64,000 bases of DNA, taken from positions 1 through 64,000 of the forward strand of contig CANKCB010000004.1 in NCBI GenBank assembly GCA_947480335.1, given 5' to 3'. A program made the position numbers and the translations under genes. The notes under the pieces were generated by a model, which saw nothing but the letters and a program-made list of their open reading frames with translations, searched no databases and was not told the origin of the DNA. Source of the stretch: Gammaproteobacteria bacterium. GTDB taxonomy: Bacteria; Pseudomonadota; Gammaproteobacteria; Eutrophobiales; Eutrophobiaceae. This document shows positions 42,593 to 63,908 of the stretch, piece after piece. Positions within the stretch are counted from its first letter, which is position 1. The number at the start of each line of letters is the position of its first letter.

Positions 42593-44575
42593 TCAGGAAC
42601 CCGAAGGTATCGCCCCTGCAGCAAACGAGCTGGTCAGGGTCTGTCCGGCTTTTACCCGGTAACGTTTATCACTGGCTGCCATTATTCCACCCAGCATCAT
42701 TATTATCGCACCCAGCCATAACCAGCGCACAAAGGGGCGATAATAAAGACGTACGCTCCAGTCTCCATTGTCGAGCACTTCACCCAGTGAGATATACAAA
42801 TCGCGTAACAAATTACCGTCGATTCCGGCCTCGGTCATGGCAGTACCGACCACCGGATAGTAACGTTTCTGGCTGACGATGGTGGTAACGGCTTTATCGT
42901 TTTTTGTTACAGCGAATACGCCTTCTGTGGCTGTGTAGTTTGGTCCCTGAACTTCCTGCAGTGATTCCAGCTTAAAGGTGTAACCGGACATGGTTGTCGT
43001 ATCACCCACCCCCATACGTGCATGTACTTCCACGCTGTACTGGCTGGTGATACTGATACCAATGATCACAAAAGCAAATCCGGTATGGGCAAGACACATG
43101 CCGAGATAGGCCGCAGGCATGGCCGTAATTCCGGCCATTATTCCGTTGGTATGGCGGATACGCTCACGTATGGCGATCACCACACCGATCAGTATCCACA
43201 AGGCAATGGCCACACCCGCTGCAGTCCGGAAGACAAAGGAATCCGTCAGCATCAGGACCGTCACTAAACCGATTACCAGACTGGCCGCCAGAGCAAAACG
43301 TAAATGCGTCCACAAGCGTAACCATTCATCTGCACGCCAACGCGCAAACATACCCAGGGTCATGGCCAGGGCCACCGGTACCATAAGTGGGACGAATACA
43401 GCATTGAAATAAGGCACGCCGACTGAAATCTTGCCCATACCAAGCGCTTCCACTACCAGCGGATACAAGGTACCGAGCAATACCGCTGCTGTTGCCACGG
43501 ACAGCAGCACACTGTTGATCAGTAACAAGGTCTCACGCGATACCAGCGCAAAGGAATTGCTTTTACTCATGAACGGTGCACGCCAGGCATATAACAACAA
43601 GGAACCGCCAATGACAATACCCAACAAAGCCAGGATAAAGATGCCTCGCTCAGGATCTGTGGCAAATGCGTGCACAGAGGTCAACACGCCAGAGCGGACC
43701 AGGAAAGTGCCGAGCAAGCTGAGTGAGAAGGCACAGATGGCCAGCAGGATCGTCCAGTTTTTAAAAACGCCACGTTTTTCAGTGGCTGACAACGAATGTA
43801 TCAAAGCAGTGCCTACCAGCCAGGGCATGAATGAGGCATTCTCAACCGGATCCCAGAACCACCAGCCGCCCCAACCCAGTTCGTAATAGGCCCACCAGCT
43901 GCCGAGCGCAATGCCCAACGTCAGAAATGACCAGGCAATGATCGTCCATGGCCTTGACCATCTGGCCCAGACGATGTCTAGATTGCCACTGAGCAAGGCG
44001 GCAATGGCAAAACTGAACGCTACCGAAAAACCGACATAGCCTGTGTACAACATAGGTGGATGAATGATCAATCCCAGATCCTGTAACAAGGGATTCAGGT
44101 CGGCGCCATCCTGGGGACCGGGAAACAATCGGTCGAACGGATTCGATGTCATTAACATGAACAACAGAAAACCCGAGCTGATAAAACCGAGTACACCAAT
44201 CACACGGGCTACAAACAGTTCCGGCAAACCCTTGCTAAACAGGGTGACCGATACTGTCCACACACTGAGGATCAAGGCCCACAACAACAACGAACCTTCA
44301 TGGGCACCCCACACGGCCGAGATACGGTACATCAGCGGTAACATCGAATTCGAATTGGTGGCCACATAACGCACGGTAAAATCATTTTCAATGAACGACC
44401 AGGTCAGTGCGGCAAAGGCCAAAGCGACCAACATGAATTGTAGCTGGGCCGCAGGTCTGGCGATTCCGGTCCAGACGACATTACGTCTGGCGGCGCCCAC
44501 CAGTGGGACCACACATTGCAATACGGCGACGCATAAGGCCAATATCAGTGCAAAATGACCGAGTTCAGCAATCAT
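42593..44575 (-). CDS. ccmF: Cytochrome c haem lyase CcmF
   Basis: This is a 660-residue polytopic membrane protein that joins haem to apocytochrome c. The tryptophan-rich haem-handling motif WGGWWFWDPVENASFMPWL is present, flanked by conserved histidines on predicted periplasmic loops. About 15 helices, length as in E. coli. Its ATG overlaps the ccmE stop by four bases. Confidence 0.96.
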   Translation of the reverse strand: MIAELGHFALILALCVAVLQCVVPLVGAARRNVVWTGIARPAAQLQFMLVALAFAALTWSFIENDFTVRYVATNSNSMLPLMYRISAVWGAHEGSLLLWALILSVWTVSVTLFSKGLPELFVARVIGVLGFISSGFLLFMLMTSNPFDRLFPGPQDGADLNPLLQDLGLIIHPPMLYTGYVGFSVAFSFAIAALLSGNLDIVWARWSRPWTIIAWSFLTLGIALGSWWAYYELGWGGWWFWDPVENASFMPWLVGTALIHSLSATEKRGVFKNWTILLAICAFSLSLLGTFLVRSGVLTSVHAFATDPERGIFILALLGIVIGGSLLLYAWRAPFMSKSNSFALVSRETLLLINSVLLSVATAAVLLGTLYPLVVEALGMGKISVGVPYFNAVFVPLMVPVALAMTLGMFARWRADEWLRLWTHLRFALAASLVIGLVTVLMLTDSFVFRTAAGVAIALWILIGVVIAIRERIRHTNGIMAGITAMPAAYLGMCLAHTGFAFVIIGISITSQYSVEVHARMGVGDTTTMSGYTFKLESLQEVQGPNYTATEGVFAVTKNDKAVTTIVSQKRYYPVVGTAMTEAGIDGNLLRDLYISLGEVLDNGDWSVRLYYRPFVRWLWLGAIIMMLGGIMAASDKRYRVKAGQTLTSSFAAGAIPSGS

Positions 44576-50680: not shown

Positions 50681-51508
50681 CTACTTGCCATTACCAGACT
50701 GCAGCAGTCTGACTGTAATCGAGATCATATATACCACGCCGGACAGCAATACAATCACCGCACCCGATGGTAAATCCGGTCCATAAGACAAGGCCAGCCC
50801 ACCCAGCGTCGTTACCACACTCAGTATTATCGAATACAACATGATGCGGGGTAAGGAACCGGCAAATTGTGATGCGGCAGCGGATGGCAGAATCAACAGC
50901 GCTATCACCAGTATCAAGCCAACGATCTGAATCAACAACACCACCGTCAACGCGATCATAGCCAGCATCAAGATATAGAACAACTCAACATTGACCCCTC
51001 TGACCCGCGCATATTCCTCATCAAAAGCCGCCGCCAGAAACTGGCGATAGTACCGCTTGACCATCACGATGATGACCAGATCCAGGCCCAACATTCGCAA
51101 CAAATCGGCCTCAGACACCAGCAGGATATTACCGAACAGATAACTCATCAGATTGACGTTATAACCCGGCGTCTGTGAAATAAAAATAATACCGACCGCC
51201 ATACCAACCGACCAGAACGCGGCAATCAACACATCCTCGCCCTGTTTCATGCGCAGGTTAATCAAACCGATCAGGATAGCAGAAAACAGCGCCATTACTG
51301 TTGCACCGAGCATCGGTGAGACACCAAAAAAGAAAGCAATACCCATACCGGCCAGTACCGCATGTGCAATACCACCTGCCAGCGAGCCCAGCTGTTTAAC
51401 TACAACAAACGTTCCAATCACACCGCAGCCCACACTGGCGAGCAGACACGCAACAATCGCGTATTTCATGAAGCGGTAATCGATAACGGCCTGGATAAAA
51501 TCAGTCAT
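50681..51508 (-). CDS. znuB: Zinc ABC transporter permease
   Basis: This 275-residue membrane protein has about eight helices and belongs to the metal-ABC (ZnuB/MntB) family. GTFVVVKQLGSLAGGIAHAVLAGMG and PSAAASQFAGSLPRIML are family motifs. I used the ATG at 51508 (MTDFIQAVID); an upstream in-frame start at 51532 would extend over the znuC end. It overlaps znuC by eight bases and is the last gene of the zur operon. Confidence 0.92.
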   Translation of the reverse strand: MTDFIQAVIDYRFMKYAIVACLLASVGCGVIGTFVVVKQLGSLAGGIAHAVLAGMGIAFFFGVSPMLGATVMALFSAILIGLINLRMKQGEDVLIAAFWSVGMAVGIIFISQTPGYNVNLMSYLFGNILLVSEADLLRMLGLDLVIIVMVKRYYRQFLAAAFDEEYARVRGVNVELFYILMLAMIALTVVLLIQIVGLILVIALLILPSAAASQFAGSLPRIMLYSIILSVVTTLGGLALSYGPDLPSGAVIVLLSGVVYMISITVRLLQSGNGK

Positions 51509-52229
51509 GGTGGTGTGTGTGACTGTGGTCAATCATCTTGATTGGAGAGCCGTAAAGCTCTTCCATGGTTTTGCCTGTGATGTCTTCAGTACGATGACAA
51601 ACCATCGTGCGGTTCAAACAACCAGCTCGATGCACGAACCCCGAAATAAAGGCGACATCATGCGAGACTACGATGATGGTCATATGATCATTATACTGTC
51701 TGAGCAGACTGAAAATATTCTGTTCAGCACGCAGGTCGATATTCGCGGTTGGTTCATCCAGTATCAATAATTCAGGTTCACAGGCAAGCGCCCGGGCGAT
51801 CAACACTCTTTGTAACTGCCCGCCGGACAGGGTTCCAATCTGTCTGTCTGCCATATCGTCCAGCTCAAGCGCCTGCAATACATTGCTCAACTTGCCTGCC
51901 AGAATTTTCTCAGGATACACACTGCCGATTTGTCCTAACCTAGCCACTTCGGCAACCGTAATCGGAAAATCACGACGAAACATCGGATGTTGTGGCACAT
52001 AGCCTATACGGCTTCTGGCACGGGACGGATCTTCACCCAGTACGCTAATGCGGCCTGAATCCGGTTTATCCAGACCCAGGATCAACCGTAACAAGGACGT
52101 CTTGCCAGCACCGTTTGGACCGATGATGCCAAAAAATTCTTCCGCATGAATTTGCAGGTTGATATGTTCGAGTATGTGAACCTGACCGTAGGACAGGTTT
52201 ACGTCCTGGATATCAATGACGCTTTGCAT
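51501..52229 (-). CDS. znuC: Zinc ABC transporter ATP-binding protein
   Basis: This is a 242-residue ATPase. Walker A is GPNGAGKTSLL, signature LSGGQLQRVLIARAL, Walker B LLILDEPTANID and H-loop VVSHDVAF. Its C-terminus ends in a histidine-rich run (DHSHTHHHD) that may bind zinc and sense or buffer it. It starts one base after the znuA stop. Confidence 0.92.
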   Translation of the reverse strand: MQSVIDIQDVNLSYGQVHILEHINLQIHAEEFFGIIGPNGAGKTSLLRLILGLDKPDSGRISVLGEDPSRARSRIGYVPQHPMFRRDFPITVAEVARLGQIGSVYPEKILAGKLSNVLQALELDDMADRQIGTLSGGQLQRVLIARALACEPELLILDEPTANIDLRAEQNIFSLLRQYNDHMTIIVVSHDVAFISGFVHRAGCLNRTMVCHRTEDITGKTMEELYGSPIKMIDHSHTHHHD

Positions 52230-52230
52230 A

Positions 52231-53067
52231 TTATTTCAGCGCTCCGGCAATCTGATCACTGACCACAACCATATTGGCGAGATAGTCCGCTGCCAGCGGA
52301 TCCATTTCAACAATCACCGCGTCCAGCTCCTGAGCCAGACTTTTTACTACCGGAGTCTGGTACTGTTTGACCATAAACAGCGTATGTATATTCTCCTCAT
52401 GCGCCACACGGATCATATCGAGTAATGAACGTGGCCCACTCTCCTTGCCATTTTCTTCCAGAGCCAGTTGTACCAGACCGAACTGCTCCGCAAAATAACC
52501 CCAGGCCGCGTGCGAAACAATAAAGTAACGGGTACGCCGTGCGGCCAGTTTGTTACGGATGCTCGTGGAAAGTGCATCCAGCTCTGACGTAAATTGACGG
52601 AACCCTGTTTCATAGGACGACTGATGCGCGGGATCGATAACGGTTAATTCATCCCGAATCTGCTGCGCCAACAATTTCACATAATCGGGACTGCTCCAGA
52701 GATGCAGATCATGATGTTCATCATCTGCTGTCGCCGCGGCGCCAATAAATTGATCACAACAGGTGGCAATCCGGATATTCGGATTGACCGATTGTATGGC
52801 CGCTGTCCAGCTCACTTCAAACGGCACACCGATCTGGAAATAGAGTCTGGCGCCGGACAAGGATGCCAACATTCTGGGTGAGGGCGTATAGGTTTCCGGC
52901 GATTGTCCGGCAGGCAACATCACCTGCACATCAACGAGGGCTCCACCAATTTTTTCCACAAACTGCTTTTGCGGTGGAATACTGACGAATACCCGGATTT
53001 TTTCTGACTCGCTCGCAACGACTGTCAACGGCAACAGCAAATACAGAAGTATGATTAATCTGGACAT
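52231..53067 (-). CDS. znuA: Zinc-binding periplasmic protein (ZnuA-like)
   Basis: This 278-residue cluster-A-I substrate-binding protein has a signal ending TVVASES. Metal ligands are expected in the DEHHDLHLWSSPDYVKL segment, the HAAWGYFAEQFG segment and a C-terminal Asp/Glu (VVIVEMDPL). The His-rich loop is short compared with E. coli ZnuA. It begins 19 bases after the zur stop. Confidence 0.88.
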   Translation of the reverse strand: MSRLIILLYLLLPLTVVASESEKIRVFVSIPPQKQFVEKIGGALVDVQVMLPAGQSPETYTPSPRMLASLSGARLYFQIGVPFEVSWTAAIQSVNPNIRIATCCDQFIGAAATADDEHHDLHLWSSPDYVKLLAQQIRDELTVIDPAHQSSYETGFRQFTSELDALSTSIRNKLAARRTRYFIVSHAAWGYFAEQFGLVQLALEENGKESGPRSLLDMIRVAHEENIHTLFMVKQYQTPVVKSLAQELDAVIVEMDPLAADYLANMVVVSDQIAGALK

Positions 53068-53086
53068 GGTTCAGTGTCTGCCTGAT

Positions 53087-53518
53087 TCAGACGGCGCTGC
53101 AGGCTGTACACAAACCCTGCACTTCGATGGTTTGGTGTCTTGTGGTAAAACCCAGCTTGCCTGCCTTGTCGGCAATCAATCGCCCAATTTCCGGATCATC
53201 CAGCTCGGCCACCACACCACACCGATGGCAAATCAGAAACTGGGCCATGGTCTGGTGACCAGGCTCACCGCAACCGACATACGCATTCAACGATTCAATT
53301 CGATGGACAAAGCCCTGCTGCTGGAGAAAATCCAGCGCACGGTAGACCGTGGGGGGCGCCGCCCCTTTCATTTCCTGTTTAAGCACTTCGAGCAAATCAT
53401 AGGCTTTGACCGGTTCATGGCTACGCCAGACCAACTCCAGCACACGGCGTCGGGTAGAGGTCAAACGCAAACCCTGCTGTAAACAACTGGCCTCGGCCTT
53501 GGCCAAAGCGGTATCCAT
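53087..53518 (-). CDS. zur: Zinc uptake regulator Zur (Fur family)
   Basis: This 143-residue repressor has the winged-helix LTSTRRRVLELVW, the DNA-reading segment PPTVYRALDFLQQQGFVHRIES and the structural CxxC pairs (ICHRCG and LCTACSAV) that mark Zur. The start follows E. coli Zur (LAKAEASCLQQGLRLT). A longer start at 53578 is also possible. The gene leads its own zinc-uptake operon and is presumably autoregulated through the Zur box upstream. Confidence 0.92.
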   Translation of the reverse strand: MDTALAKAEASCLQQGLRLTSTRRRVLELVWRSHEPVKAYDLLEVLKQEMKGAAPPTVYRALDFLQQQGFVHRIESLNAYVGCGEPGHQTMAQFLICHRCGVVAELDDPEIGRLIADKAGKLGFTTRHQTIEVQGLCTACSAV

Positions 53519-53601
53519 ACAGTCAGAATGACAGTGGTCAACCGCCCTGAAAGGGCTAACAATTTGATTTATATGCATAAAGGTAAGGCCGGGAATAGTA
53601 A

Positions 53602-53913: not shown

Positions 53914-55581
53914 CTAATCCACCGACCCTTTTCTAACTCTCTTGCCAGTAAACGGTTTGGCGCCTAACTGCAGTAATAACTTCTCAATATCCTCGTTGGC
54001 GGGAATGCGACGATAGCGATCGTCATATCTGCCTATACCGATACTGCGGTAGTAACGCGATTCCGGATCACCCATGGCCAGCATCAGTGGTGTCATGCCG
54101 TAGCGGTCGGGAACATCCAGATTCGCTTTATTTTCTGCGAGAAAACTGATCATGTCTTTCCAGCCCGTGGTTACCGCGAAATGGGCTATCGTCCTGCCAT
54201 CTGCCTTGCCAGCACCTGGTCCATTCACCACACTTTTGTCTGTCAAACTGACATTGATGTTTTTGTCGCCCATCGACATCGCCAGTTTGGCGACTTCAAT
54301 CGACTGTTGCTCGTCCCGCATACCGGCTTCTGCGCCGCCTCCGGCTGCCAGCAATAATACTGATGCACCTCCGGCAGTCTTTAACGAAATATCCGCACCA
54401 TGTTCCATCAGGATGCGCATCGATTCCATATCGCCTGAAGCGGCAGCAAGATGCAACGGAGTAGCGCCGGTGATATGTATTTGCGACGGGTTATCGTTAC
54501 TGCGTAAAAACTCATTGTCCAGTTTGGGATATTCATAATCCACACGTACGTTCGGGTCTGCGCCAAACTCCAGCAACGCCTTCACCATGCCCGGCATGTT
54601 CTTGCGTTCCCAACCCAGCTTGTCACTGCCAAACGGAGATTGACCGTTCATAATCAACACGCCCTGATGCAAGGCATAATGTAGTGGAGCCAGTCCATAC
54701 CAGTCCTTCACGTTCGGGTTCGCGCCTTTCTCCAGCAGGTATTTGCCCAGTTCTTCATGACCGGAGGCGATGGCAACCATCAGCGCTGTTCCGTTTTCCT
54801 CATTTGAATAATCAAGATCGGCACCGGCTTCCGTTTCCAGCATGGCGCGGGCAGATTCCAGATCGCCTTGTTGTGCGGCAAACTGCAAGGCTGTGAAACC
54901 GCCGGTGAACTTGCGAAAACGGATACTCGGGGTGAAATTCAAGCCTGTGACACTGGGTACTTTGATTATGTGCGGCTCGGCAAACGGGACAATTCTGGAT
55001 TTGGCATTGACTTGAGCACCATTATCAACCAGTAGCTTGACCACATCCGCATGCTTTTCTGCTGCTGCCCACATCAGGGCAGTCTGATCATCTTCAGACT
55101 CAACCACATTCACATTCGCTCCTGAATCTATAAGCTGCTGTACGGCTGCGACAACCCCCATACCGGCACAGGTCATCAGCGGTGTTTCGCCAGTTAACTT
55201 TGGATTGTCCGGTTTGGCGTTTGCTTTCAATAACAGGCTGACAATTTCTGCATTCTGGTTGGCGCAGGCAAGATGGAGCGGATTGATTCCATATTCATTG
55301 GCCGCATTCACATCGGCGCCCGCCTGAATCAATTGTTCTACTGCATTGGTATCATCGTTATAGACAGCCCAACTGAGCGCGGTTGCACCATCTGCTTCGG
55401 GAATATTGACATCAACACCTGTTTTGAGCAGCGCTTCAATCTGTGTCGTGTCATCATTTTTCGCCGCCATGACCAGATCCAGGTCTGCTGACAATACCAC
55501 TGGCTGATATCCGGCGACAGCCAACGCGAGTATGGCGGACATGACTGTTCTGTTCTGAATAAGCTGCACTCCCACCCCCAA
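53914..55581 (-). CDS. Exported ankyrin-repeat protein
   Basis: The protein has up to 555 residues. After a signal-like N-terminus (VMSAILALAVAGYQPVVLSA) about ten ankyrin repeats follow, with motifs such as DGATALSWAVYNDDTNAVEQLIQAGADVNA, NPLHLACANQNAEIVSLLLKA, TPLHLAAASGDMESMRILMEHGADIS and TPLMLAMGDPESRY. It probably acts as a protein-binding scaffold in the periplasm. The start is uncertain: TTG at 55581, GTG at 55569 and ATG at 55542 are all in frame; all keep a hydrophobic leader. It lies 16 bases after the DUF1552 stop in the same operon. Confidence 0.8.
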   Translation of the reverse strand: MGVGVQLIQNRTVMSAILALAVAGYQPVVLSADLDLVMAAKNDDTTQIEALLKTGVDVNIPEADGATALSWAVYNDDTNAVEQLIQAGADVNAANEYGINPLHLACANQNAEIVSLLLKANAKPDNPKLTGETPLMTCAGMGVVAAVQQLIDSGANVNVVESEDDQTALMWAAAEKHADVVKLLVDNGAQVNAKSRIVPFAEPHIIKVPSVTGLNFTPSIRFRKFTGGFTALQFAAQQGDLESARAMLETEAGADLDYSNEENGTALMVAIASGHEELGKYLLEKGANPNVKDWYGLAPLHYALHQGVLIMNGQSPFGSDKLGWERKNMPGMVKALLEFGADPNVRVDYEYPKLDNEFLRSNDNPSQIHITGATPLHLAAASGDMESMRILMEHGADISLKTAGGASVLLLAAGGGAEAGMRDEQQSIEVAKLAMSMGDKNINVSLTDKSVVNGPGAGKADGRTIAHFAVTTGWKDMISFLAENKANLDVPDRYGMTPLMLAMGDPESRYYRSIGIGRYDDRYRRIPANEDIEKLLLQLGAKPFTGKRVRKGSVD

Positions 55582-55597
55582 CCGTGTTATTTGACCT

Positions 55598-56935
55598 CTA
55601 GACCGTATCCAGACCTTTCAGAATACCGGATGCGTCAGTCTTTTCAGTGAGATACTCGGCAGGTGAAACACCGGCCATGTCCATCACTGCCAGATGCAAA
55701 TCAGATAAGGCTGTGCCTTTTTCATACTGGATATGACGACCGCTCTTGATTTTGTTTTGCGCAGAACCCAGCACCAGCACCGGAATATTGGTATGTAAAT
55801 GCAGGTTCGCATCACCATGAGCGCCGCCCATGACAATAACGGAGTTATCCAGCAGCGTTCCATCCCCTTCCTTGATCGATTGCATTTTTTCAATAAAGTG
55901 AGCCAGCAGCGTAGATTGATGCAGCTCGATTTTTTTCACCAGCTCTATCGACACCGGGTTACCCTTATGATGGGTCAGGGAATGATGGCCGTCTTTCGCT
56001 CCCAGCTCAGTGTAGTTTCGATTGGAGCCTTCATGACCGAGCATAAAGGTGATCATTCTGGTCATGTCTGTCTGATAGGCCAGCACCATCATGTCAAACA
56101 TCAGTTTGACGTGATCTGCATAGACAGGCGGTATACCGGCCGGTCGCTGTAGTTCGGCAACCAGTTTTTGATCCGTAATCGCGGATTTGGATTCTGCCAC
56201 CTGGATACTGCGTTCAATATCGCGTACCGAATCCAGATACTCTTCCAGCTTGTGCCGGTCCCCTGCTCCTACGCTGCTCATCAACTGATTAACACGACCA
56301 GTGACATGGTCTAACACGCTGTTCTTTTTGGCCAGACGAATACGGGTGGCTTCAGGATCCAGTGTATCGGCATCACCAAACAGTCTTTCAAATACCTTGC
56401 GTGGATTTATCTGCATGGGCAACGGCGTGGTGGGATTACGCCAGGAAATCGTGCTGGTGTAATATCCGGCCAGACCATCCACCGCTCCAAAGGCGAGCTC
56501 AGGTGAATCCACTCCAATCTCCAGTGATGCCAACTGGGTTTGACTGGCCAGCTGCTTCGCAATAACCTGATCAACGGATATACCAACAGAATTGGACTCC
56601 TTGGAGGGTTTGATACCCGTCAGATAGGATGCACATGGGCCGGAATGAGAACCTTGACCTGCCTTGACATCCAGATTGCTCAAAAGCAAAAACTGATCAC
56701 GATAAGCAGTCAGAGGCTGCAATGTCGCTGGCATCTCGTAATCCGCACCTGTGGTGGCCGGTATCCAGGCTTCCGGAATTCTGCCGGTAGGTAAATAGAT
56801 ATAACCGATACGCAGCGGATGTGTTGCGCTGGCGGCAAAAGCTGGCACCATCGCATCCAGAAAAGGCAGTGCCATCGCTACACCGGCACCCCGTAGAAAT
56901 GTACGCCGTTGCATGGCTTTCCTGAATATCATCAT
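55598..56935 (-). CDS. Tat-exported DUF1552 protein
   Basis: This 445-residue protein begins with a Tat signal (QRRTFLRGAGVAMALPFLD), so it should be exported folded. The body shows the DUF1552 family pattern: RIGYIYLPTGRIPEAW, LLLSNLDVKAGQGSHSGPCASYLTG, the VDQVIAKQLA segment and a C-terminal VIVMGGAHGDANLHLH...IPVLVLGSA. It resembles the DUF1501/sulfatase-like group in its histidine- and aspartate-rich C-terminus, and may be a hydrolase. The start ATG overlaps the DUF1592 stop by four bases (ATGA), so the two are translationally coupled. Confidence 0.87.
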   Translation of the reverse strand: MMIFRKAMQRRTFLRGAGVAMALPFLDAMVPAFAASATHPLRIGYIYLPTGRIPEAWIPATTGADYEMPATLQPLTAYRDQFLLLSNLDVKAGQGSHSGPCASYLTGIKPSKESNSVGISVDQVIAKQLASQTQLASLEIGVDSPELAFGAVDGLAGYYTSTISWRNPTTPLPMQINPRKVFERLFGDADTLDPEATRIRLAKKNSVLDHVTGRVNQLMSSVGAGDRHKLEEYLDSVRDIERSIQVAESKSAITDQKLVAELQRPAGIPPVYADHVKLMFDMMVLAYQTDMTRMITFMLGHEGSNRNYTELGAKDGHHSLTHHKGNPVSIELVKKIELHQSTLLAHFIEKMQSIKEGDGTLLDNSVIVMGGAHGDANLHLHTNIPVLVLGSAQNKIKSGRHIQYEKGTALSDLHLAVMDMAGVSPAEYLTEKTDASGILKGLDTV

Positions 56936-59364
56936 GGTTCTGATCTCCTGTATTGAAATGATTTACTTTCGACAATACCCAGTATCAGTGATGACCAGGT
57001 ATGGTTCTCTGCTGCTGTTTTCTGGACGATTTCCCTTATAACAGGTTTATCGTAATACTGGATGCTCCTACCCATTGCATAGGTATACAGCTTGGTGGTT
57101 ACGGTATTGACAAATCTGTCGGAGTATTTCAGGAACTCTTTTTGGAACTCCATCGTATCGTTGAACTTGCTGCCATCAAATAACAGGCCTGAGGCATCCA
57201 CATCCGCATTGGCATCGTCATAGCGGGTGCGGAACTTGCCAATCGCATCGAATGTTTCCAGCGCGAGTCCTATCGGCTCCATCATTTTGTGGCAGTTGGC
57301 ACAGACCGGATTGGTACGATGCGCCTCCATGGATTCACGCATGGTAAGAATCTTGCCGGACTTGTCTGCTACCTTTAATTCCGGCTGGAAGGCATCTGCA
57401 GGAGGCGGTGGCGGTGCCATGGCCAGGATATTTTCCAGTATCCACTTGCCACGCACGACAGGAGATGTCCGGTTATTATAGGAGGTAATCGTGAGTATGC
57501 CCGCTTTGCCCAGCATACCTCTACGCAACGTATCATCGACATTTACCTTGCGGAACCGGCTACCACTCACACCCTGGATTCCATAATGACGGGCAAGTCG
57601 TTCGTTTACAAAGGTATAGTCTGATGTGAGCATCGCTGAAACACTTTCATTCTGACGGAACATATACGCAAACCAGAGTTCCATCTCCTTCTTCATGGCA
57701 TAGAGTAATTCACCATCAAATTCCGGAAATATCGCGACCTGTGGATCAACCAGATCAATCGCACGTAATGCCAGCCATTGTCCACCGAAATTCCTGATTA
57801 ATGCCTCGGCTCGTGGATCCTGCAACATGCGTTGCACCTGTTGTTTCAGTATTTCCGGATCGTGTAGTTCCGATTTTTCAGCCAGGGCCAACAATTCATT
57901 ATCCGGGATACTACTCCAGAGAAAGAACGATAATCGTGAGGCCAGATCCAGATCGGCAATTCGATAGGCCTTGCCTTTGTCCGCATCCGCTGGATTCTGT
58001 TCTATCCGAAACAGAAAATCCGGTCCGGCCAGAATACCTTGTAACGCCAGTTCTATTCCGCCTGCATGTCCTTCCAGTTCAAATCCGCTTCTGTACAACA
58101 ACATTAATCCTTCCACTTCTTCAGCGGACACGGGTCTGCGGTAGGCGAGACGGGCAAGTCTTTCAATGATGGATACAGCACAGGTTTCATCGGCAGGCGA
58201 GTCGGGCGTACAGGTAAATATCTTTTTGCGGCTGGGCGTTTCACCCGTTAGCTTGACTTTATAAGGGCCCGTTACAACAACATTGTATACCGTAGCATCG
58301 CCACCCTTGTAGCGTTCAAGATCAAGCAGTGATAGTTCGGGAGTGAGTATGCCAGGCTTCTTTACGCGATCCTTGAGAAAAGCCACGCCGACCTTGTGCA
58401 TGCCTGCCTTGACATCCACCTTGACCATCAAATTCTCGTCTGCCGAGAACTCATAGCCCACTTGATCCGCTTCACCTGCAAAATCGGCAATCGGGTTATG
58501 AAAGAGTGGGCCGGACTTGCCGTGGACTTCTCCACCCACCGTGATCATTTCAACCCGCTTTTGGTCGACACGTATATCCAGCAGATTCTTCTTGCGCATG
58601 CCGCGAATGTATCCATCCGTGGTTCGACCCAGACGCGCCCGTATCGTGTACTCGCCATCCAGCGGGAAATAATGCTGGAACGCGATACCACCGCGTGAAC
58701 CAAACGGCAGATCCTCGTTCATTCTGTCGTACTGTAAATATTCGTCCTGAACATCATAGGTTTTGCTTTCCGGCAACATGGACGACGGTCCGACTGCCAG
58801 CCGACTTACCCGTGCCGCAACCGCCATGTATTGATCCATCAGAACAGGAGACACCGCCAACACTTCAGCGATATTATCAAAACCTTCTGCCACGTTATCG
58901 ACGGGCAAAAACTCTGCCCCATCGATCTGCAAATCCAGTAAATCCCTGACAGCATTGGCATATTCAGTACGGTTTAACCGATGTACAGTGGATTTCCCTG
59001 GATTAAATTTTTCCTCAGCCAGATGTGTCAATGACTGTTCAAGATAAGTAACAAAAGCAACATATTCTGCTTCCTGCGGACGTACTGGCATACCCACTGG
59101 TGGCATCGCACGCAGGGTCAGTTTGGTTAATACCTTTTCCCAAAGGGCAGGATCCTTGCCAGGATTATCCACATCGGCCAGATCGAGCATCACATTCGCC
59201 GTCTTGAGTGTCTCGTTATGACAGCCCACGCAGTATTGGTTTAATAATGGGCGATAAGAAGCAGCTGAGCCTGATGTCGGTAGATTTTGGGCAAAGCTAT
59301 TGAAACTTATACCGGATAATAAAAACAGGAAGGCAAGATTTACCATGCATTTCCGGAATCGCAT
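56932..59364 (-). CDS. DUF1587/1592/1588/1585-type cytochrome-like exported protein
   Basis: This 810-residue exported protein begins with a signal peptide (LAFLFLLSGISFNSFAQ), then a c-type haem motif YCVGCHNETLK, followed by the DUF1587 segment VHRLNRTEYANAVRDLLDL. A beta-rich domain at about residues 210-370 (DGEYTIRARLGRTTDGYIRG) could bind carbohydrate. The DUF1595/DUF1592 region includes RLARLAYRRPVSAEEVEGL and LASRLSFFLWSSIPDNEL; DUF1588 includes RRGMLGKAGILTITSYNNRTSPVVRG; CANCHKMMEPIGLALE follows; DUF1585 ends it. ATG 59364 is preferred to TTG 59382. Domain order is standard for the family best known from planctomycetes. Function unknown. Confidence 0.88.
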   Translation of the reverse strand: MRFRKCMVNLAFLFLLSGISFNSFAQNLPTSGSAASYRPLLNQYCVGCHNETLKTANVMLDLADVDNPGKDPALWEKVLTKLTLRAMPPVGMPVRPQEAEYVAFVTYLEQSLTHLAEEKFNPGKSTVHRLNRTEYANAVRDLLDLQIDGAEFLPVDNVAEGFDNIAEVLAVSPVLMDQYMAVAARVSRLAVGPSSMLPESKTYDVQDEYLQYDRMNEDLPFGSRGGIAFQHYFPLDGEYTIRARLGRTTDGYIRGMRKKNLLDIRVDQKRVEMITVGGEVHGKSGPLFHNPIADFAGEADQVGYEFSADENLMVKVDVKAGMHKVGVAFLKDRVKKPGILTPELSLLDLERYKGGDATVYNVVVTGPYKVKLTGETPSRKKIFTCTPDSPADETCAVSIIERLARLAYRRPVSAEEVEGLMLLYRSGFELEGHAGGIELALQGILAGPDFLFRIEQNPADADKGKAYRIADLDLASRLSFFLWSSIPDNELLALAEKSELHDPEILKQQVQRMLQDPRAEALIRNFGGQWLALRAIDLVDPQVAIFPEFDGELLYAMKKEMELWFAYMFRQNESVSAMLTSDYTFVNERLARHYGIQGVSGSRFRKVNVDDTLRRGMLGKAGILTITSYNNRTSPVVRGKWILENILAMAPPPPPADAFQPELKVADKSGKILTMRESMEAHRTNPVCANCHKMMEPIGLALETFDAIGKFRTRYDDANADVDASGLLFDGSKFNDTMEFQKEFLKYSDRFVNTVTTKLYTYAMGRSIQYYDKPVIREIVQKTAAENHTWSSLILGIVESKSFQYRRSEP

Positions 59365-59604
59365 TATTTGAAAACTATCCAAGCCTTATCCCCCGATTTG
59401 ACTAGTAGTCTGCCTGAGTAAATTGCAGGCGGCTGCAGGTTCGCCAGTATATCAAGCGAAGTGGATATTAACCGGGAAAATTTACCTCGTTGGTAACTTG
59501 TAGTTCTGGAACTCTGAACCAATCAACCACGCGGTAGCACACAGGCCAGGATGTACACGGGAAACGATATAACCGCATGATTTATAAATTAATTATCACT
59601 AAAT

Positions 59605-59638: not shown

Positions 59639-61771
59639 CTAGAAGCTGCCGCTGACCCCAAAGTTTATACGCCATCCAGCTGATCGATTGCGGATGATAC
59701 GCGAGTCCACCGGACTCAAGTCTCGCGCACCGGTATAAAGTGTACGATCCCGCAATTCGTCATAATCAAGCAGGTTATTACCTTCAACACGGATCTTCAC
59801 TCCGAACCAGCGGGTGGTTTCAATAAAGGTATTAATCAGTACGCCTTCGTCATTGATCTCCAGTTCGTTCACCTTGTAGATAGGACGTTCGGCCTGCTCG
59901 GCAACCTGCCAGCCCCAGGCTACCCGTGCTGATTCAAAATCCTGTCGATAAGAAACGTTGTAGACATAACGGTTATCATTGCTGAAGCGAATAATAGGTG
60001 GTCCACTAAAACCACTGACCGCTTTCAAGGTTCTGTCACGACCGGTGACGGGATCCACCACACTGGAATTCTGCCAACGCAATTTTACATCCAGTCTGGC
60101 ACCCAATAATCCCAACCATTCCAGCGGCAGGGTATTTTCGATCTCTATGCCGTAGCGTTTGCCATCCCCGATATTGCCGGGGGCCTCAAAGGTTGCTGAC
60201 AAGGGCAGCAGATCCAGCACGTCCTTAATCCAGTGATGGAACAATGTCACCTTAACGACACTCTGCTTGCCAAAACGTTTTTCCTGTCCGATTTCCGCGA
60301 TCCAGGTGGTATCCGGTTTCAGGTTGGGATTTCCAAGCGCGAGATCATCATCTTCGTATACTGTCGCGCTGATAAAATCTTCAAAATCCAGCTGGGCAAC
60401 TTCTCGCGCGAGACGGAGCCGTGTCTGGTTGCCCTGGGAGGGTGAGTAGCTGAGCACAACAGCCGGTTTCACAAAAAAGAAATTCCGTTTCAGCTCGGCA
60501 TCACCACTCTGTGAGATGGTGGAGGTTTCTGCACCCAGACCATAATCGAGTTCAAACTTGCCCAGTGACCAGGTATCTTTCAACAGAAAATCGCCACGTA
60601 TTTCCTCAACCCTGGAATTGGCGCCAGGTACATCGACCGGCACTGGTCCTGCTCCACGATCGACCAATTGTTCCAGCGTGCCATCCAGCACGTTATAGGC
60701 CGTCTCCATATTCAATTGCCAGGCATGATTGGTCATACCGCTCCAGTCGAATTCGAAACGACCTATGCTCTCGGAATTGACCGATGCCGTATGAACCTGA
60801 CGAAAGGCCGTTTGCAAGCCGCTCAAGGCCCGGGTGCTTTGGGTGGTTAACACGTCATATTCTGTACGTGTATATAACAGTATGGCCTTACCCATCAGCT
60901 CGTTGGTCAGTACGTGTTCGGCATCCATACCCAGCTCATAGGTTTCACGATGCTGGCCATCCCTGAAGATGACATTAAACGGTTGTTTCGGTAACAAGGG
61001 AGTACGATTGGAATATCGAATTTCCGGTGCGTTGCTCAGACCAAATTTGCCATTGACCTGCACAAAGGTCTGCCCTATCCAGCTCGCTGTGTTCACAAAC
61101 AGTCCAGACAACATCAGGCCGGTTTCATCTTCGTTATCAAAGCGGGATTCAATTAACTTGCCGGTGCCATCGAATACATTTTCATCACCGTATTCGCCAT
61201 TGGAATTGCGCTCCAGCCCAAATCCAACATTGTATTCAATGTCTTTCCATCGATCAGACAACGAGGTCCGCAGTCCCGGTTTGACTGGCCCGGAACTGCT
61301 ATACAGTAAAAATGACTCCCAGCGTATCGCTGCCGGTGCATCGTCTCGTAACAGTACGTTGACTACCGCCTGTTGACCGAGCATGTCCAGACCCTGCATC
61401 TGTCCCCGAATCAATTCAATTCCGGCTACCTGACTGGCTGGGATACGTGACAAGGTAGCGGAAGGTCTGTCCTGCTTCGCACTCGGACGTCGGCCATTGA
61501 TCAGCACATTACCGGCGGTGGTAGCAAATCCGCGTGAGGTATCACCATCGTCCAGCTGAAAGCCCGGAACCTGTTTGACCATATCAAAAGCCGTATTGGG
61601 CTGGTATCGACTGAAAAAGGCACTATCATATTTAACAATCTGATCAGCTTGCGCAGGAGCAGCTTGCTCTGTTGCAACTTGCGCCTGTGTGCACGGAGCA
61701 CTCAGAGCCAACAGCAGAATCAGACTTGTCGACCCGTAGCGAATCAGTTTGCTTTCAATCATAAAAATCAT
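59639..61771 (-). CDS. TonB-dependent receptor (paralogue 1 of tandem array)
   Basis: This 710-residue outer-membrane receptor has a signal ending PCTQAQV. A plug domain begins with the family phrase KYDSAFFSRYQPNTAFDMVKQVPGFQLDDGD, then VLINGRRPSAKQDRPSATLSRIPASQV and a barrel ending RINFGVSGSF. The lack of siderophore-plug motifs and the PNTA(F/L)DMVKQ(V/L)PGFQLDDG phrase place it in a group of uncharacterised receptors common in alpha- and gammaproteobacteria. It is clearly related to the next gene along its whole length. The substrate is unknown. ATG codons at 61771 and 61762 are both usable. Confidence 0.88.
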   Translation of the reverse strand: MIFMIESKLIRYGSTSLILLLALSAPCTQAQVATEQAAPAQADQIVKYDSAFFSRYQPNTAFDMVKQVPGFQLDDGDTSRGFATTAGNVLINGRRPSAKQDRPSATLSRIPASQVAGIELIRGQMQGLDMLGQQAVVNVLLRDDAPAAIRWESFLLYSSSGPVKPGLRTSLSDRWKDIEYNVGFGLERNSNGEYGDENVFDGTGKLIESRFDNEDETGLMLSGLFVNTASWIGQTFVQVNGKFGLSNAPEIRYSNRTPLLPKQPFNVIFRDGQHRETYELGMDAEHVLTNELMGKAILLYTRTEYDVLTTQSTRALSGLQTAFRQVHTASVNSESIGRFEFDWSGMTNHAWQLNMETAYNVLDGTLEQLVDRGAGPVPVDVPGANSRVEEIRGDFLLKDTWSLGKFELDYGLGAETSTISQSGDAELKRNFFFVKPAVVLSYSPSQGNQTRLRLAREVAQLDFEDFISATVYEDDDLALGNPNLKPDTTWIAEIGQEKRFGKQSVVKVTLFHHWIKDVLDLLPLSATFEAPGNIGDGKRYGIEIENTLPLEWLGLLGARLDVKLRWQNSSVVDPVTGRDRTLKAVSGFSGPPIIRFSNDNRYVYNVSYRQDFESARVAWGWQVAEQAERPIYKVNELEINDEGVLINTFIETTRWFGVKIRVEGNNLLDYDELRDRTLYTGARDLSPVDSRIIRNRSAGWRINFGVSGSF

Positions 61772-61787: not shown

Positions 61788-63908
61788 TCAGAAACTGCCG
61801 CTTACGGTCATATCCAACTGTCTGCCACGCTTGTTATCAATTAACTCACGGCGGCTTATGCCCGAACTGCCTCGTTCACCCAGATAGATCGTACGCACAC
61901 GATCCCGGGTGATATTAAAAATATCTTTCAGATTGAAACGAACCTTGACCCCGAACCAGCGTGTGGTTTCTGTGAATAGACTGACTTCGGTACCTTCATC
62001 GTATATGTCCAGTTCATTCACCTTGTAGAGCGTACGTTGATCACGGAAGCGGACGTCCCAGCCCCAGGCTACTTTTGCCGCCTGAAAATCCTGACGGTAA
62101 TCTATCGCTGCTGTGTATTTAATATCTTCGTCCTTGAATGCAATGGCGTTCACCAGACCGCTTTCTCCTGATAACACACGGTCGTTACCGGTAACCGGAT
62201 CCACAACGGTAGAATCCTGCCAGCGAGCACGTATATTCAACCTGGCATTGTCCAGCGCCAGCCAGTCCAGTGGTATGGTATTTTCAACTTTCAGTCCCCA
62301 GCGTCTGCCATCACCGATATTCCCCGGTGCTTCAAAGGTCGGTGACAGTGGCAACAGATCCACCACATCGGTGATCCAGTGATGAAACGCGGTTACCTTG
62401 ATAACACCGATATCCCCAAAACGCTGCTCCTGACTTACTTCCAGCACCCAGGTCTTGTCCGGACTCAGGTTCGGATTACCGAGTGCAAGGTCATCGTCCT
62501 GGAATACGGCCGCGCTGACAAAATCATTAAAGTCGAGCTGGGAGATTTCCCTGGCCAGTCGTAACCGGGTTTGACTGCCCTTGACTGGAGAGTAACTTAA
62601 CATGCTCTGAGGTTTCATAAAGATGAAATCACGTTCCAGTTCGGCATCACCGGTCTGGGAGATTTTCGAGACTTCAGCACCGAGTCCATAATCCAGTTCA
62701 AATTGACCGAGTGACCAGGTATCTTTCAGCAGAAAATCTCCGCGTTTTTCCTTGACTACAGTATTTGCTCCCGGCACCGTCTCCGCGACAGGTCCAGCAC
62801 CGGTATTGACTGTCTGGGTCAAACTATTGTCCAGTTTGTTCAGTGCGCCTTCCATATTGAATTTGATCGCATGGTCTGCAATACCTTCCCAATCAAACTC
62901 CAGTCGGCCTATTGATTCTGTGGTCAAGGTTCCTGTGTCAGAAATTCTGATCAGGGTTTGTTTGCCTGTCGAATTCACCACGGTTTGTGTCGATAATTCA
63001 TCCAGATTGTTCCTGGTAAAAAGCACAACTGGTCTGACAGTCAGGTCATCCGACAAGGCTCTCTCTGCATTTAAACCAATCTCAATACTGTGACTACGAC
63101 GATCATTATCAAACGTTTCTACACGCGGTGTGCTACCAACAGTCAATGGCACACGTTCAGCTCTGGTCACGTCTGTAATATCGTTGAAGCCGAGCTCTGA
63201 ATTCATTTGCAACAGCGTCTGCCCCATCCAGCCGCTGGCGTTCAGATTGCCTGACATCGTGAGGTGCTTGTTCACTGTCTTGTCATTGCGATCTTCTGTA
63301 CGAACCCCGGCACCATTTTCCGTATCACGGCTACCCTTGGTGATATGGGCATGATGATTACCTTCCAGTCCGGCGTTATAATCGATACCATTCCATTTGT
63401 CTGCCAGCGAAATGCTGCCGCCTGGCATAATGATTCCGGTATAGAAATTCTTCCAGACAAAACCTTCCCAGCGCACGGCGACGGGTGATTCTTCACGCAT
63501 GATAATATTGGCCACTACGGACTGCCCCAGCATGTCCACTCCACTTAGCTGCCCCCGAACCAGGTCAATACGAATCACGTTTCCTGCCGGTATACGACTC
63601 AGCACAGCTGAAGGTGTATCCTGTTTGACACTGGGACGTCTACCGTTGATCAATATATTGCCTACGGCAGCCGTGAATCCTCGAACACTTTCTCCATCGT
63701 CCAGCTGGAATCCGGGTAATTGCTTGACCATATCCAGCGCGGTATTGGGATGGTATTGAGCGAAAAAGATGGCTGGATACTCAACCACCTGAGCAGAATT
63801 TTCTGCTGTAGCGGCAGGATTCTGCTGTGCGTATGTGACTGGTAATAATCCGGCATACAACAGACCTAATCCGCTAACGATTGAAACGATTCTGTTACAG
63901 GTATTCAT
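61788..63908 (-). CDS. TonB-dependent receptor (paralogue 2 of tandem array)
   Basis: This 706-residue receptor is a paralogue of the previous one, with matching plug phrases (NTALDMVKQLPGFQLDDGE, NILINGRRPSVKQDTPSAVLSRIPA) and barrel segments (FEAPGNIGDGRRWG, TLYKVNELDIYDEG). The signal peptide covers the N-terminus (VSGLGLLYAGLLPVTYAQ). It ends in DMTVSGSF. The 16-base gap to paralogue 1 and 42-base gap to the third copy suggest one transcript, read from the third copy toward paralogue 1. Substrate unknown. Confidence 0.9.
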   Translation of the reverse strand: MNTCNRIVSIVSGLGLLYAGLLPVTYAQQNPAATAENSAQVVEYPAIFFAQYHPNTALDMVKQLPGFQLDDGESVRGFTAAVGNILINGRRPSVKQDTPSAVLSRIPAGNVIRIDLVRGQLSGVDMLGQSVVANIIMREESPVAVRWEGFVWKNFYTGIIMPGGSISLADKWNGIDYNAGLEGNHHAHITKGSRDTENGAGVRTEDRNDKTVNKHLTMSGNLNASGWMGQTLLQMNSELGFNDITDVTRAERVPLTVGSTPRVETFDNDRRSHSIEIGLNAERALSDDLTVRPVVLFTRNNLDELSTQTVVNSTGKQTLIRISDTGTLTTESIGRLEFDWEGIADHAIKFNMEGALNKLDNSLTQTVNTGAGPVAETVPGANTVVKEKRGDFLLKDTWSLGQFELDYGLGAEVSKISQTGDAELERDFIFMKPQSMLSYSPVKGSQTRLRLAREISQLDFNDFVSAAVFQDDDLALGNPNLSPDKTWVLEVSQEQRFGDIGVIKVTAFHHWITDVVDLLPLSPTFEAPGNIGDGRRWGLKVENTIPLDWLALDNARLNIRARWQDSTVVDPVTGNDRVLSGESGLVNAIAFKDEDIKYTAAIDYRQDFQAAKVAWGWDVRFRDQRTLYKVNELDIYDEGTEVSLFTETTRWFGVKVRFNLKDIFNITRDRVRTIYLGERGSSGISRRELIDNKRGRQLDMTVSGSF

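Follow-up and report, generated by a model that had tools for sequence, protein, structure and literature searches.

What do three adjacent genes do together when two of them belong to exported families without known function and the third codes for ankyrin repeats? The question is raised by a stretch of 64,000 nucleotides (the window; positions 1 to 64,000 of contig CANKCB010000004.1, assembly GCA_947480335.1) from a gammaproteobacterium of the family Eutrophobiaceae. Calling of open reading frames (ORFs) together with Pfam searches placed three minus-strand genes, in the order DUF1592-type, DUF1552 and ankyrin, wholly inside the window:

56932..59382, minus strand: DUF1592-type gene, 816 amino acids (aa) from a TTG start, predicted exported di-haem protein
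55598..56935, minus strand: DUF1552 (HXXSHH) gene, 445 aa, twin-arginine (Tat) signal, sulfatase/alkaline-phosphatase fold
53914..55581, minus strand: ankyrin-repeat gene, third of the trio, 555 aa, exported (signal read by eye)

The first gene also has an in-frame ATG at 59364, six codons after the TTG, which was the start taken in an earlier note on the window. Its junction with the DUF1552 gene is a 4-base ATGA overlap, and the gap between the DUF1552 and ankyrin genes is 16 bases from the TTG at 55581, or about 55 if translation starts at the first ATG, at 55542. In the present study, we arrived at a reading to which we give an even chance, namely that the trio works as a redox unit of the periplasm, in which a di-haem protein is paired with a repurposed sulfatase-fold partner, and that it has been duplicated to deal with different imported substrates.

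Recurrence and co-divergence of the trio

The genome that holds the window comprises 2.42 Mb in 27 contigs and is 95% complete. By family search it holds 13 DUF1552 and 13 DUF1592 genes. Every one of the DUF1552 genes is preceded by a DUF1592 gene and followed by an ankyrin gene, all three in the same orientation. DUF1592 and DUF1552 overlap by 4 bases in 8 of these 13 trios, and the junction of DUF1552 with the ankyrin gene measures 16-50 bases in 11. The three-gene unit proposed in the earlier note is real and was understated, as it recurs at every one of the 13 places in the genome, beyond chance. Identity to the window copy is 43-70% for the DUF1552, 45-65% for the DUF1592 and 33-57% for the ankyrin proteins and, judged from these sequences, the copies within the genome are old. 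The three families have diverged together: the distance matrices of the 13 copies correlate with r of 0.95 (DUF1552 and DUF1592), 0.90 (DUF1552 and ankyrin) and 0.92 (DUF1592 and ankyrin), and none of 9999 permutations gave a value as high.

The search for relatives covered 58 genomes including the window's own (5 of the genus, 32 others of the family and 21 other members of the class). The five genus genomes gave 13, 20, 18, 17 and 10 DUF1552 matches, some of them partial in the fragmented genome G003; elsewhere in the family one match was obtained in 1 of 32 genomes, and DUF1552 was not found in the 21 other class members searched. A class sample of 321 genomes, again including the window's own, held DUF1552 in 6 and DUF1592 in 8, the 6 all being among the 8. 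Because the genus genomes are rich in the module and the family and class samples are nearly empty of it, the trio represents a module, rare in the class, that has expanded at the level of the genus. The expected co-occurrence of the genes was confirmed in three genus genomes, where 13/13, 20/20 and 17/18 DUF1552 genes belong to a trio (50/51 in all). The sole DUF1552 gene of these 51 without DUF1592 and ankyrin neighbours is L128 (G002:C1:256558-257466).

A wider scan of a collection, made with the DUF1552 alignment, gave at least 571 relatives, and the best 80 loci, mostly from Acidobacteria and Gammaproteobacteria, were kept; these are the loci closest to the DUF1552 subfamily of the window, and at least 7 of them come from the genus itself (L028, L029, L030, L062, L089, L092, L094). 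Among the scanned contigs, CAMDWI010000004.1, CAMDWI010000007.1 and CAMDWI010000011.1 (L028, L062, L089, L030) are contigs of metagenome-assembled genomes that carry the module under the label Klebsiella pneumoniae, a label that is presumably wrong. A DUF1592-like gene was present in 79 of the 80 loci, and the exception (L061) starts 149 bases before DUF1552. The ankyrin gene adjoins the pair in 66 loci and lies within 4 kb in 2 more, 68 in total: it is directly downstream in 47, upstream and divergent in 17, upstream on the same strand in 1, downstream and convergent in 1, and up to 4 kb away in 2. These loci add up to 1.30 Mb with 77 ankyrin ORFs, and 75 of the ORFs lie within 500 bp of a DUF1552 or DUF1592 gene. 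The linkage is kept across changed orientations, which argues that it is functional, and the trio is conserved within a subfamily found in both Gammaproteobacteria and Acidobacteria. It had been stated beforehand that a joint system would be contradicted if relatives had the genes randomly separated. This was not seen in close relatives, where the genes are linked; in the class sample the ankyrin gene stands beside the pair in 2 of 6 genomes only.

It could still be argued that the three genes are merely co-inherited and that their products do not work together. The copies within the genus share ancestry, so that their repeated order alone is weak evidence, and the ankyrin gene is missing in 4 of the 6 class-sample genomes with DUF1552. 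Against this stands the linkage kept in differing orientations at the 80 closest loci, and we consider simple co-inheritance very improbable.

The DUF1592 protein as a predicted di-haem cytochrome

In the window protein, Pfam recognised DUF1587, DUF1595, DUF1592, DUF1588 and DUF1585 in this order, with E values from 6e-16 to 1e-44 and all over the curated cut-offs. The complete order of domains is an N-terminal mono-haem cytochrome c, DUF1587, a beta-sandwich, DUF1595, DUF1592, DUF1588 with the second haem, and DUF1585. The haem motifs, the sandwich and a gene relevant to haem attachment are located as follows:

59218..59232, minus strand: first haem-c motif, CVGCH, residues 51-55
57289..57303, minus strand: second haem-c motif, CANCH, inside DUF1588, residues 694-698
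58252..58785, minus strand: beta-sandwich, residues about 200-377, structure match with borderline Z of 7-8
42593..44575, minus strand: CcmF-type gene (cytochrome c maturation), needed for haem c, outside the trio

Two CxxCH motifs are present in 82 of 85 aligned DUF1592 proteins. That the protein carries haem c, as had been predicted, is supported by these two candidate sites and by the CcmF gene of the genome. The CcmF-type gene lies about 9 kb from the trio, in a dense run of minus-strand ORFs that is probably an operon for cytochrome c maturation.

A profile of the N-terminal domain, built from 47 of 84 sequences, matched the small mono-haem cytochromes ScyA (E 0.002) and cA (E 0.007) in the PDB over most of the length. 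By sequence, the whole protein gave a weak cytochrome match in the same database, and the N-terminal domain gave mostly cytochromes. Met93 of an MPP motif is Met in 85/85 aligned proteins and, from the alignment to ScyA and cA, is likely to be an axial haem ligand. Because of these mono-haem matches and the invariant Met, the N-terminal domain is likely a class I cytochrome with His/Met ligands. His688 is likewise found in 85/85 proteins and may be the second ligand of the DUF1588 haem.

The AlphaFold model of the protein is of good quality (mean predicted local distance difference test score, pLDDT, 92.4; predicted template modelling score, pTM, 0.90). In the VIA-align comparison of structures, a single domain may take up a whole match list, so that absence from the list does not speak against a family, and coverage of the helical parts of this protein was slight. 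The beta-sandwich matches the carbohydrate-binding modules (CBMs) CBM36, CBM35 and CBM6 at Z of 7-8; C1q and TNF folds score alike, and therefore the model gives only a hint of carbohydrate binding. The idea that this protein may bind carbohydrate, put forward before, thus has a borderline fold match in the window protein and a stronger basis in the CBM-bearing relatives described below.

The DUF1552 protein and its changed catalytic position

The second protein of the window belongs to DUF1552 (HXXSHH, PF07586) with an E value of 1e-91, and the pattern H..[ST]HH is found in 13/13 copies of the genome. Three elements of the protein are used below:

56888..56908, minus strand: twin-arginine motif RRTFLRG at the N-terminus
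55967..55987, minus strand: HHSLTHH motif, residues 317-323
56645..56647, minus strand: His97 in the formylglycine/nucleophile register of sulfatases, a register set by spacing, ten residues before the Gly of LTG

An RR pair occurs within the first 40 residues in 94/94 aligned DUF1552 proteins. The claim that the products are exported was supported by the RRTFLRG motif here and by the signal read by eye in the ankyrin protein.

The AlphaFold model (mean pLDDT 86, pTM 0.86) was matched by Foldseek to sulfatases, phosphodiesterases and the PafA phosphatase with E values down to 8e-6, and VIA-align superposed it on a sulfatase with Z 17.9 and a root-mean-square deviation of 3.6 over 266 aligned residues. 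Within this sulfatase/phosphatase fold, the protein fails to carry the Cys/Ser/Thr nucleophile and the first metal Asp, the register being taken from motif spacing. Position 97 is His in 94/94 DUF1552 sequences, where sulfatases carry Cys (CSPSRAGLLTG), and position 50, in the register of the first metal Asp, is Asn in 77/94 and Thr in 7/94, including the window copy. Invariant in the 94 sequences are also His318, His322, His323, His379 and Asp122; the conservation of His97, His379 and Asp122 is unselected, because these residues were absent from the patterns used in the collection scan. When the DUF1552 profile was aligned by hhalign to 13 sulfatases, the only match was local, in the C-terminal metal loop (E 0.0076, probability 5%). 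Because this match is weak and C-terminal, the register of His97 rests on motif spacing and on the fold, in which the residue lies at the start of a helix after a strand. A sequence search of the PDB gave no DUF1552 relative, only three designed proteins at E 0.5 to 1.

Since the nucleophile register holds His and the metal-Asp register mostly Asn, we did not file DUF1552 as a hydrolase, and such an assignment is doubtful. The earlier note had taken the protein for a hydrolase-like partner; the fold agrees with this, but His in 94/94 and Asn in 77/94 at the catalytic and metal positions do not. The same evidence bears on the explanation by which DUF1552 works as a phosphatase or sulfatase that depends on a metal and has unusual ligands, and DUF1592 handles the electrons of another step in the same pathway. 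It would account for the clear fold match to sulfatases, phosphodiesterases and PafA and for the local metal-loop match. The residues at positions 97 and 50 argue against it, as does the lack of a Sulfatase match among the 25 families listed, out of 30, for the 94 members at E up to 1, and we regard this explanation as rather improbable.

The ankyrin protein

The third protein of the window consists of ankyrin repeats (Pfam E 5e-64). The ankyrin models of Dot/Icm effectors were tried and rejected, the best score being 123.6 of 600 bits and far below the cut-off, and the repeats are thus of a generic kind. Two ankyrin proteins described in the literature offer an analogy: AnkB of Pseudomonas aeruginosa is a periplasmic ankyrin protein that serves the catalase KatB, and Cj1386 of Campylobacter jejuni binds haem and passes it to the catalase KatA (PMC7567364, PMC11442138). 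As in these cases, the window trio has an ankyrin gene beside the gene of a haem protein. The partner in the trio is a c-type cytochrome and not a catalase, and Cj1386 is cytoplasmic, whereas the ankyrin protein of the window is predicted to be exported. By this analogy, a first guess is that the ankyrin protein may act as an assembly factor; alternatively, it could be a scaffold.

Neighbouring genes

The surroundings of the trios were surveyed in three genus genomes, as the 112 complete proteins of at least 100 aa encoded within two genes of trio genes, receptors and trio genes being excluded. The commonest families were Amidohydro_3 (10), pyrroloquinoline quinone (PQQ) dehydrogenase (7), FAD_binding_2 (4), metallo-beta-lactamase (4) and NMT1 (3), followed by dienelactone hydrolase, LPMO_10 and Sulfatase (2 each). 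The core of the trio is constant and the accessory enzymes vary. In two loci from the collection scan (L053 and L063), a PQQ dehydrogenase gene follows the DUF1592-DUF1552 pair.

It has to be weighed here whether the unit has a role in respiration, in electron transfer at the surface or in defence against oxidative stress, and not in the catabolism of particular substrates. The two predicted haems per protein, the exported ankyrin partner that recalls catalase operons and small CxxCH proteins seen by eye among the trio neighbours are in line with such a role. The 10-20 diverged copies with different accessory enzymes fit substrate diversity better than one housekeeping role, and we give this explanation a small chance.

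Directly upstream of the window trio lies an array of TonB-dependent receptor-like genes, two of which are in the window:

59639..61771, minus strand: TonB-dependent receptor-like gene directly upstream of the trio, possible associate
61788..63908, minus strand: second TonB-dependent receptor-like gene of the same array

At least five receptor matches stand in a row (59.9, 62.0, 64.3, 66.4 and 70.7 kb), and the array extends to about 71.7 kb of contig C4. Because 25 sequences of one type but a single sequence of another went into the receptor profiles, other receptors may be missed.

An exported protein resembling lytic polysaccharide monooxygenases (LPMOs; sce4755/LPMO_10) is encoded directly before one trio each in the window genome (G000) and in G001 (L023:12400-12921 and L141:1898-2458, both outside the window), and a homologue (L094:18863-19393) lies about 6 kb from the trio at its locus. 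The copy of the window genome scored 72 of 75 bits, just under the NCBIfam cut-off for sce4755. A link between sce4755 and DUF1592 across the class was looked for and not found: they occur in 6/321 and 8/321 genomes, respectively, and both only in the window genome.

A gene for a two-domain protein of the glyoxalase/dioxygenase superfamily with a twin-arginine start precedes DUF1592 in ten gammaproteobacterial loci (L036, L039, L049, L057, L066, L067, L068, L073, L081 and L096), three of which were scanned. Downstream of the ankyrin gene, at 50681-53578 of the window, a zinc-uptake-like set (binding protein, ATPase, permease and Fur-family regulator) was recognised by eye.

Discussion

According to the reading favoured here, the three products would form a complex that works in the periplasm. 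The DUF1592 protein would carry electrons via two haems c, one in the class I cytochrome domain and the other in DUF1588, and its constant partner, the Tat-exported DUF1552 protein, is the probable place of the substrate or metal site. AnkB and Cj1386 suggest by analogy that the exported ankyrin protein may serve as an assembly or scaffold factor. Substrates probably enter via TonB-dependent receptors and would then be oxidised together with the neighbouring dehydrogenases. Multiplication within the genus has led to 10-20 copies of the unit, each of which may plausibly deal with its own class of substrate. In a bolder form, which we consider unlikely, the trio would be a new kind of periplasmic oxidoreductase or oxygenase, in which a sulfatase fold, its nucleophile lost, has gained a metal site with His ligands. 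Electrons would pass between this site and a dedicated di-haem cytochrome, the ankyrin protein would assemble the pair, and the genus would use 10-20 such enzymes on different imported substrates.

Several observations weigh against the favoured reading. The nearest copy agrees between the families in only 8, 5 and 5 of the 13 copies. The scan patterns held the HxxSHH motif and PRxxFERLF, which biases the conservation seen in the 80 loci, and no ankyrin gene was seen at 12 of these closest loci, 5 of which have a left flank shorter than 2 kb. The two class-sample genomes with an ankyrin gene beside the pair are the window genome and G188 (L149), and the stretches from G087, G110, G176 and G178 held no ankyrin ORF. 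Because only these 2 of 6 have it, the ankyrin partner is the mark of a subfamily and not of all DUF1552 pairs. The receptors are unevenly associated, being directly adjacent at 7/13, 8/20 and 1/17 trios of the three genomes (16/50), with a receptor adjacent to one further trio of the window genome in an overlapping fragment. In the window genome, a receptor lies within 4 kb of 9/13 trios versus a mean of 4.4, a value reached in 74 of 2000 shifts; the counts are 7/13 within 2 kb (76 of 2000 shifts) and 5/13 within 1 kb (262 of 2000). The link between TonB receptors and the trio is thus weaker than it looks. No accessory neighbour is constant, and none therefore points to a substrate. A search for PqqC gave no match in the genome, and its controls likewise gave none, which makes this search uninformative.

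No function is known for the widespread exported families DUF1592 and DUF1552, and the trio turns the question of what they do into a few direct tests. The weight of the finding lies in the 10-20 diverged copies, the third partner, the clear fold in which the catalytic position has changed, and an architectural link to a protein with a growth phenotype on cellulose. If the oxidative reading is true, the trio would represent a redox route for processing imported organic matter outside the cytoplasm.

Comparison with known systems

Some relatives in the class carry the DUF1592 block in larger proteins. In L145 and L146, three CBM2 modules, a cytochrome c and the block DUF1587-1595-1592-1588-1585 form one protein beside DUF1552, and in L147 CBM26 modules and a glucose/sorbosone dehydrogenase domain are joined to a cytochrome c and the DUF1592 block, also beside DUF1552. 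The gene after DUF1552 codes for a flavocytochrome-c-type flavoprotein in L145 and L146 and for a TonB-like protein in L147. L148 (G176) shows a comparable arrangement, in which DUF1501 takes the place of DUF1552 and there is no ankyrin gene: a DUF1501 protein, a flavocytochrome-c-type flavoprotein and a PA14/cytochrome protein of 3211 aa stand in a row. The giant protein has a weak DUF1592-like match (E 8e-5 and 5e-5 in two scans and none in a third, at a cut-off of 0.001), and DUF1501 matched only 1/94 DUF1552 proteins, at E 0.11.

The architecture of L145 is that of Cbp2D from Cellvibrio japonicus, which is described as having CBM2, the cytochrome X183, DUF1587 and X132 with a C-terminal CxxCH (PMC8981238); X132 would correspond to the block DUF1595-1592-1588-1585. 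The X183 domain can start the reduction of LPMOs, and normal growth on insoluble cellulose depends on Cbp2D and Cbp2E, which in the authors' view may cut directly through a novel mechanism (PMC12542752). A table for a lignocellulose community also contains a CBM2-bearing DUF1592 protein of the Cellvibrio type (PMC6004670). The window protein shares with Cbp2D and with TERTU_2913/TERTU_3803 of Teredinibacter (PMC8981238, PMC12542752, PMC10916295) the character of an exported redox protein with a cytochrome c and a C-terminal module with one CxxCH, and, as in Cbp2D, its DUF1587 is next to the cytochrome c domain. The trio might therefore be a form of the Cbp2D system that supplies electrons to LPMO-type enzymes or cuts glycans oxidatively. 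The CBM2- and CBM26-bearing relatives, the reported properties of Cbp2D and the LPMO-like genes near three trios speak for it. On the other side, the 25 commonest of the 129 neighbour families of the 112 proteins include no glycoside hydrolase, sce4755 and DUF1592 overlap in the window genome only, and a PDB search with the cytochrome domain did not return CjX183 (7B21) at E values up to 10. The window protein is also without CBM2 and has DUF1552 and ankyrin partners instead. We give this explanation a minor chance.

The domain names of the window DUF1592 protein are those of the PSCyt3/PSD2-5 proteins of He et al. (PMC5615132), who in 2017 reported for Planctomycetes and Verrucomicrobia that the PSCyt3 cytochrome genes usually adjoin a gene family of unknown function. 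In the same source these genes are frequent in some genomes and inversely correlated with glycoside hydrolases (r -0.62), and their products are predicted to be periplasmic or cytoplasmic. They differ from the trio in belonging to different phyla, and the main text holds no ankyrin partner. The suggestion that the window holds an undescribed system is therefore right in part: PSCyt3 genes beside an unknown gene family were in print, and the ankyrin partner was not found in print. Searches of the open-access literature found neither the DUF1592-DUF1552 pairing under these names nor the ankyrin trio, and the papers that they gave for either name alone make no mention of ankyrin in their main text. 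The cytochrome domains and their neighbours are thus already known as sequence families without function, and the new parts are the ankyrin partner, the expansion within the genus and the change at the catalytic position. It is in this last part that the trio meets the sulfatase/alkaline phosphatase superfamily, with which DUF1552 shares the fold, while carrying His in the nucleophile register, Asn or other residues in the metal-Asp register and further invariant His residues.

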